Origin: Deltaproteobacteria bacterium
Lineage (GTDB): Bacteria; Bdellovibrionota; JACOXK01
Assembly: GCA_016186995.1 (NCBI GenBank)
Contig: JACPKQ010000028.1
Location: 1 to 37,637 of the forward strand
Length of the DNA stretch: 37,637 nucleotides
Direction of reading: 5' to 3'
In this document: positions 36,886 through 37,637 of the stretch, piece by piece
Numbering within the stretch: the first letter of the stretch is position 1
Layout: every line of letters starts with the position of its first letter
The notes under the pieces: model-generated
What the model was told of the DNA's origin: nothing
Seen by the model: the letters and a program-made list of their open reading frames with translations, nothing else
Databases searched by the model: none
Made by a program: the position numbers and the translations under genes

Positions 36886-37637
36886 ATGATACCTAAAAAG
36901 AAAATCGCTATTTTGACTTCTGGGGGTGATTCTCCAGGTATGAATGCCGCTTTGAGAGCTATGGTTCGTACAGGCATTTACCTTGGATATGAAATGTATG
37001 GTATCCAAGGAGGGTTCCAAGGACTTATCTGGGGGAATAACCTTTATTACGACCAAAACCATAATTTCTATGAAAAAGAAGGTAATGCTTTCTTTTGTAT
37101 CGATTATGAAAGAAATCGCTTCTTAAGCAAAAATAAAAGAAAAGCCGTTGCACTCTACAATCGGGAAAAAAAATATTTTAAATACAATAATCTTTTCGAA
37201 GAAAAAGGTAAATTTCTTTGTCTTAGCTCTAAAACAATCTTTGAACTGACATCCAAAAAATATATTCTGCCTCTGACACATCAAGACGTTGATGGTATTG
37301 TTGGAGATGGAGGAACTATTCTTGGAACTTCGCGTTGTCCTGAATTTAAACAAAAGTTCTATCAAAAAACTATCTCCTCTGAAGATTATATAGCTGCTCT
37401 GGGAGATACTGATGAAACCGGTGTCTTAATAGCTAAAAAAGTTGTACTTTTAAAATCAACTGATACACAACTTAAAAGCTATTTATGGGGACAAATCATT
37501 TCTATCTCAGATAACTTAGTTACCTTAAGAACAAATAACCTTAAACATGTGGCTATCAGCTTCTCTACATCTTCTGAAGCTAAACTGAATGATTTTGTGA
37601 TATTAACGGGCCATAAAAATAAAAATGATATTTTTGA
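36886..37637 (+). CDS. 6-phosphofructokinase, 5' part, with two large insertions
   Basis: Open from the ATG at 36886 to the window end, 250 codons without a stop. The start [20 protein letters not shown] (residues 4-23) and then [23 protein letters not shown]-like text (about 132-154, with GTSRCPEF) are the first two conserved blocks of ATP-dependent phosphofructokinase. In ordinary enzymes the second block ends near residue 76. Here about 75 extra residues (about 52-127) come between, rich in Lys, Phe, Tyr and Asn. After PEF the GGDGS block should come within about 30 residues, but 96 residues follow without it. These include a beta-rich stretch ([32 protein letters not shown]). So there are two insertions near the active site. 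The rest lies outside the window. Confidence 0.85.

Follow-up and report, generated by a model that had tools for sequence, protein, structure and literature searches.

Results

The pfk locus and its contigs

The stretch of DNA analyzed here, the window, is 37,637 nucleotides long and constitutes the entire contig C24 of a draft genome (1.68 Mb, 30 contigs, 93% complete). The contig ended inside a 6-phosphofructokinase (PFK) gene, pfk, which ran off the contig end (Table 1). The only other match to the PFK domain profile, PF00365, obtained in a profile search of the genome lay at the very beginning of contig C19 (bases 2-580; profile positions 97-275). This part has the sequence IIGGNGS...PGSIDNDIG...VMGRESG...LGHVVRGG, and rho comes next. 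The first-pass annotation, which was confined to the window, had asked for the remaining catalytic blocks of the enzyme, and SIDNDIG, MGR and GHVVRGG were all found on C19.

The nearest relative is a groundwater "Deltaproteobacteria" MAG, designated L050 (JACOXK010000078.1), whose contig is identical to that of G001, a member of the same family as the window genome. In L050 a cold-shock gene (csp), a complete pfk encoding 435 residues (572-1879) and rho were all present on a single contig, and the cold-shock gene of the window was 88% identical to its counterpart there. Since L050 retains the order csp-pfk-rho, C24 (csp-pfk) and C19 (pfk-rho) were taken to be neighbors at one locus. Residues 2-161 of L050 PFK aligned with C24 up to base 37371 (63% identity), while the sequence from residue 176 aligned with C19 (66% identity), leaving a gap of approximately 14 residues (about 42 bases) as judged against L050. 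C24 and C19 fit one locus, in which they are neighbors with about 14 codons missing between them.

Adjoining csp and pfk on the minus strand (32620-36174) was a row of lysine/diaminopimelate genes, identified by eye as dapB-, dapA-, dapF- and lysA-like frames. Two tRNA genes (Rfam RF00005), at 7097-7169 and 8389-8461 on the minus strand, were about 1.3 kb apart, both scored 53.1 bits and are possibly duplicates.

Table 1. Features at the 3' end of the window
Feature	Position	Strand	Evidence or remark
Cold-shock-type protein gene	36618..36818	+	Directly upstream of pfk; same neighbor in L050; backs csp-pfk-rho synteny
pfk 5' part, PFK residues 1-161/162, including insert 1	36886..37371	+	PF00365 and TIGR02482 matches; 63% identity to L050 PFK residues 2-161
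Insert 1, residues 51-125 (NNLYYD...TSKK), some 75 residues more than an ordinary PFK has	37036..37260	+	Spacing counts; homologous inserts in L050 and L051; AlphaFold2 model of L050
PFK core resumes: [36 protein letters not shown], E. coli PfkA positions 49-84, effector positions 54/58/59 altered	37261..37368	+	
Contig tail, open in the PFK frame, unrelated to PFK, probably a chimeric end	37369..37637	+	True continuation: C19:2-784

Identity of the enzyme and catalytic residues

The frame at 36886-37635 was open for 250 codons and carried both of the first PFK blocks, exactly as the first-pass annotation had described. The PF00365 scores were 82 bits for the window part, 173 bits for the C19 part and 297 bits for the L050 protein, compared with a cut-off of 30.9, and TIGR02482 also matched the window part. 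On sequence grounds, the gene is a predicted PfkA-family 6-phosphofructokinase of the ATP type, the only one detected in the genome.

A second relative, L051 (JACQJE010000063.1), belongs to a different family of the same phylum. The PFKs of the window genome, L050 and L051 share the insertion described below, and all three have Gly104. Glycine at this position is characteristic of ATP-type PFKs, aspartate of the PPi enzymes. The catalytic Asp127 and the substrate arginines, Arg72, Arg162, Arg171 and Arg252, were retained in the insert-bearing enzymes. However, Asp103 of the GGDGS loop, constant in all 37 comparison PFKs, was replaced by asparagine in the window genome (GGNGS, on C19) and by glutamate in L050 (GGEGS), and only L051 had the aspartate. 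Membership in the PFK domain family is sure, but because of the replacements of residue 103, in two of the three sequences, ordinary catalysis is not certain.

Insert 1 is a predicted folded segment confined to a small clade

The first insertion, insert 1, comprises 75 residues in the window and 77 in both L050 and L051, and is flanked by GLIWG and [10 protein letters not shown]. The segment between positions 46 and 64 (E. coli PfkA numbering) was 93, 95 and 95 residues long in the three insert-bearing PFKs, compared with exactly 18 residues in each of the 37 others, so the original estimate of about 75 extra residues between the first two blocks was accurate. The view that this is an insertion foreign to ordinary PFKs and not the product of decay was also borne out. 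It was absent from all 37 comparison enzymes, and the frames were open in all three pfk genes that carry it. Forty-one of 80 residues were identical between the inserts of the window and L050, and 16 insert columns were invariant across the three sequences.

A profile made from the insert only clearly identified it in three of the 369 genomes of the phylum. Two weak matches to part of this profile (E of 2-5e-4 per genome; G270:C41:16445-16609 and G271:C44:35012-35173, loci L049 and L048) sat inside a 662-residue frame in another family; they are either due to chance or point to a remote homolog of insert 1. When a GTDB set of 84,980 species was scanned for a pattern covering the insert region plus flanking sequence, only L050 and L051 came up, although diverged copies can escape such a scan. 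In a tree built from columns without the insert, the three insert-bearing PFKs formed one clade with a support of 100/99.

The AlphaFold2 model of L050 PFK had a mean pLDDT of 80, and insert 1 was modeled as strands and short helices, mostly with a pLDDT of 72-91; the underlying alignment was shallow, with only three rows covering the insert. The core of the model superimposed on solved PFKs with Z values of about 35 or more, and a structure search with the whole model gave clear matches to PFKs only. Insert 1 is real and is a predicted folded segment of about 75-80 residues. A separate profile search of insert 1 and of the contig tail, which the first-pass annotation had recommended, produced no known family; for insert 1 nothing significant was found in Pfam, NCBIfam, PHROGs or the PDB.

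Insert 1 adjoins an altered effector site

The first-pass annotation had placed the inserts at the nucleotide and sugar-phosphate side of the enzyme. This assignment has to be revised. Insert 1 enters directly after the GLIxG motif and returns just ahead of the effector positions 54, 58 and 59 of E. coli PfkA, so that it lies beside the allosteric effector side and not the substrate side. In E. coli PFK, the effectors ADP and PEP are contacted by Arg21, Arg25, Arg154, Ser58 and Asp59, and Arg154 holds the phosphate of ADP (PMC12889660).

This classical effector site was not found as such in the insert-bearing PFKs. Position 154, arginine in all 37 comparison enzymes, was Ser, Thr and Ser in the three sequences. 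Position 58 was aspartate in all three and position 59 was Gly, Ser and Glu, while Arg21 and Lys213 of the effector site were kept and Arg25 was kept in two of the three. The effector site also varies among ordinary PFKs, in which position 59 is asparagine in 30 of 37, so that a comparison with the classical site bears on regulation and not on family membership. The substitutions support a remodeled effector pocket in the insert-bearing PFKs, and the regulatory role that had been suggested for the inserted segment is plausible for insert 1, which adjoins the altered residues. However, since only three sequences carry insert 1, the common changes at positions 58, 59 and 154 may stem from a common ancestor and not from function. 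Judged from the sequences, this small-clade form of ATP-type PFK, with one insert and a putatively remodeled effector site, is new.

The apparent second insertion

Similarity to PFK ended after FKQKFYQK and the last 266 bases to the contig end were unlike PFK. The first-pass annotation had read this region as a second insertion of at least 70 residues following the PEF motif. The open frame was confirmed but the domain was not, as the residue count measures the contig tail. The spacing between PEF and GGxGS was an ordinary 26 residues in both complete relatives and in all 37 comparison PFKs, so a double insertion is not upheld; the second one is missing from both relatives, and the tail probably does not belong to the gene.

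Searches of 369 genomes from the phylum yielded no credible relative of the tail. Nine genomes, including its own, had matches with E ≤ 0.05, and the best match in another genome, 0.001 per genome, was judged to be chance given that 369 genomes were searched. A match in G023, within a peptidase T-like gene, was likewise attributed to chance. No match was found in Pfam, NCBIfam, PHROGs, the PDB, phages or viral contigs, and the plasmid search gave only a chance-level match (E = 8). Several origins of the tail were considered and rejected: 1) a host repeat or mobile element, as there was no second copy in the genome, 2) a clade-specific domain, as the tail was absent from L050 and L051 and had no credible match in the phylum, and 3) a viral piece, as the viral contigs, phages and PHROGs had no match. 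Composition gave no proof of a foreign origin, as the tail was not an outlier relative to its host. The intein check found no Pfam or NCBIfam intein match, and the tail starts with threonine where an intein would have Cys or Ser, but only 89 of its residues are visible. A fold predicted from the single sequence had a pLDDT of 39, a low-confidence prediction. The tail may resemble beta-repeat proteins (DUF5666-like) that are common in CPR bacteria, which would suit a contaminant from co-sampled groundwater CPR, but Pfam gave no such match.

The likeliest explanation is that the tail is the chimeric end of a contig, an assembly artifact, since it has no detected relative, the spacing is ordinary elsewhere, the break point falls inside a helix (residues 156-168 of the L050 model) and the contig ends there. 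A genuine in-frame insertion after FKQKFYQK, be it an additional segment or a mobile element, with the contig broken inside it, is improbable but has points in its favor. Read in the frame of PFK, the tail has no stop over 88 codons, equaled in only 5 of 5000 shuffles, its codon usage is at the 24th percentile of the host with GC3 also within the host range, and both C24 and C19 break in pfk. However, such an insertion would split helix α3 in the middle, both complete relatives lack it, C19 resumes only about 14 residues after the break, no similarity to inteins, introns or transposons was found in the tail, and it is not repeated in the genome.

Discussion

PFK is a textbook allosteric enzyme. 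The reading that we consider reasonably probable combines the two results: insert 1 would cap, fill or replace the classical effector pocket with altered regulation, while the second "insertion" would be a contig tail that is not part of the enzyme. In this small lineage, the loop that connects G-L-I-x-G to the strand and helix bearing positions 54, 58 and 59 has gained one domain-like segment of 75-77 residues. The pocket has changed along with it, with Arg154 lost, residue 58 becoming aspartate and residue 59 altered. Insert 1 most likely works by capping, filling or replacing the ADP/PEP pocket, and the consequence would be a different regulation, either by a new ligand or partner or through insensitivity to ADP and PEP. 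Beyond FKQKFYQK, contig C24 departs from the gene and its final 266 or so bases are presumably foreign, a probable chimera, while the enzyme continues on C19. The broader proposal, that in a groundwater lineage of small, Deltaproteobacteria-labeled genomes an inserted domain of about 75-80 residues, with no recognized relative, has taken the place of the classical ADP/PEP pocket in the sole PfkA-family PFK, giving glycolysis a novel control, is put forward tentatively and with considerable doubt.

Insert 1 could instead serve in assembly or partner binding, by altering an oligomer interface or anchoring the enzyme to another protein, without a part in effector control. The effector site of the bacterial enzyme sits at a subunit interface (PMC12203962), where an insert can alter the tetramer contacts too, but the paired changes at the effector residues 58, 59 and 154 point to the pocket itself, and this explanation is considered unlikely. 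Neutral decoration of a fast-evolving or partly impaired PFK in a reduced genome was judged quite unlikely. The branches are long (1.18 to the pair formed by the window genome and L050) and Asp103 is replaced in two of the three enzymes, as such an account would have it, but the open frames, the shared and invariant residues of the insert and the otherwise intact catalytic residues argue against it.

A natural insertion right at the effector pocket, in enzymes that have also lost an arginine present in every one of the 37 comparison PFKs, makes it possible to test how allosteric control can be rebuilt. The tail of C24 also illustrates that a contig end can imitate a domain insertion.

Comparison with known phosphofructokinases

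The structures of ATP-dependent bacterial PFKs solved from five species are nearly identical (PMC12203962). The predicted enzyme shares with PfkA of E. coli and Geobacillus stearothermophilus the two-Rossmann core (Z of 35-36, with 36-42% identity over the aligned core) and the catalytic residues except Asp103, with the ATP-type Gly104 and Gly124 in both the window genome and L050. It differs in the insert of 75-77 residues before positions 54, 58 and 59, in the replacement of Arg154, Ser58 and Asp59, and in the Asn or Glu at position 103 in two of the three sequences. A PFK with a domain inserted at the position of insert 1 was not found described in the open-access literature.

An insertion of similar size is present in the PPi-PFK of Borrelia burgdorferi (2F48/1KZH), where 83 residues form an extra domain of four helices and a beta hairpin that contains His384, covers the active site and selects PPi, and a C-terminal extension disrupts the effector site (PMC12203962). 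In contrast, insert 1 is near residue 50 on the effector side, residue 104 is glycine rather than aspartate and the overall identity is about 22%. A Borrelia-type PPi-PFK with an inserted domain was ruled out by the location of insert 1 before positions 54-59 and by Gly104. The PFK of Trypanosoma brucei, 28% identical in sequence, has a C-terminal reaching arm that lies over the effector site (PMC12203962). The two enzymes are alike in having an extra element over or at this site, but that of T. brucei is a C-terminal extension whereas insert 1 is an insertion in the N-domain.
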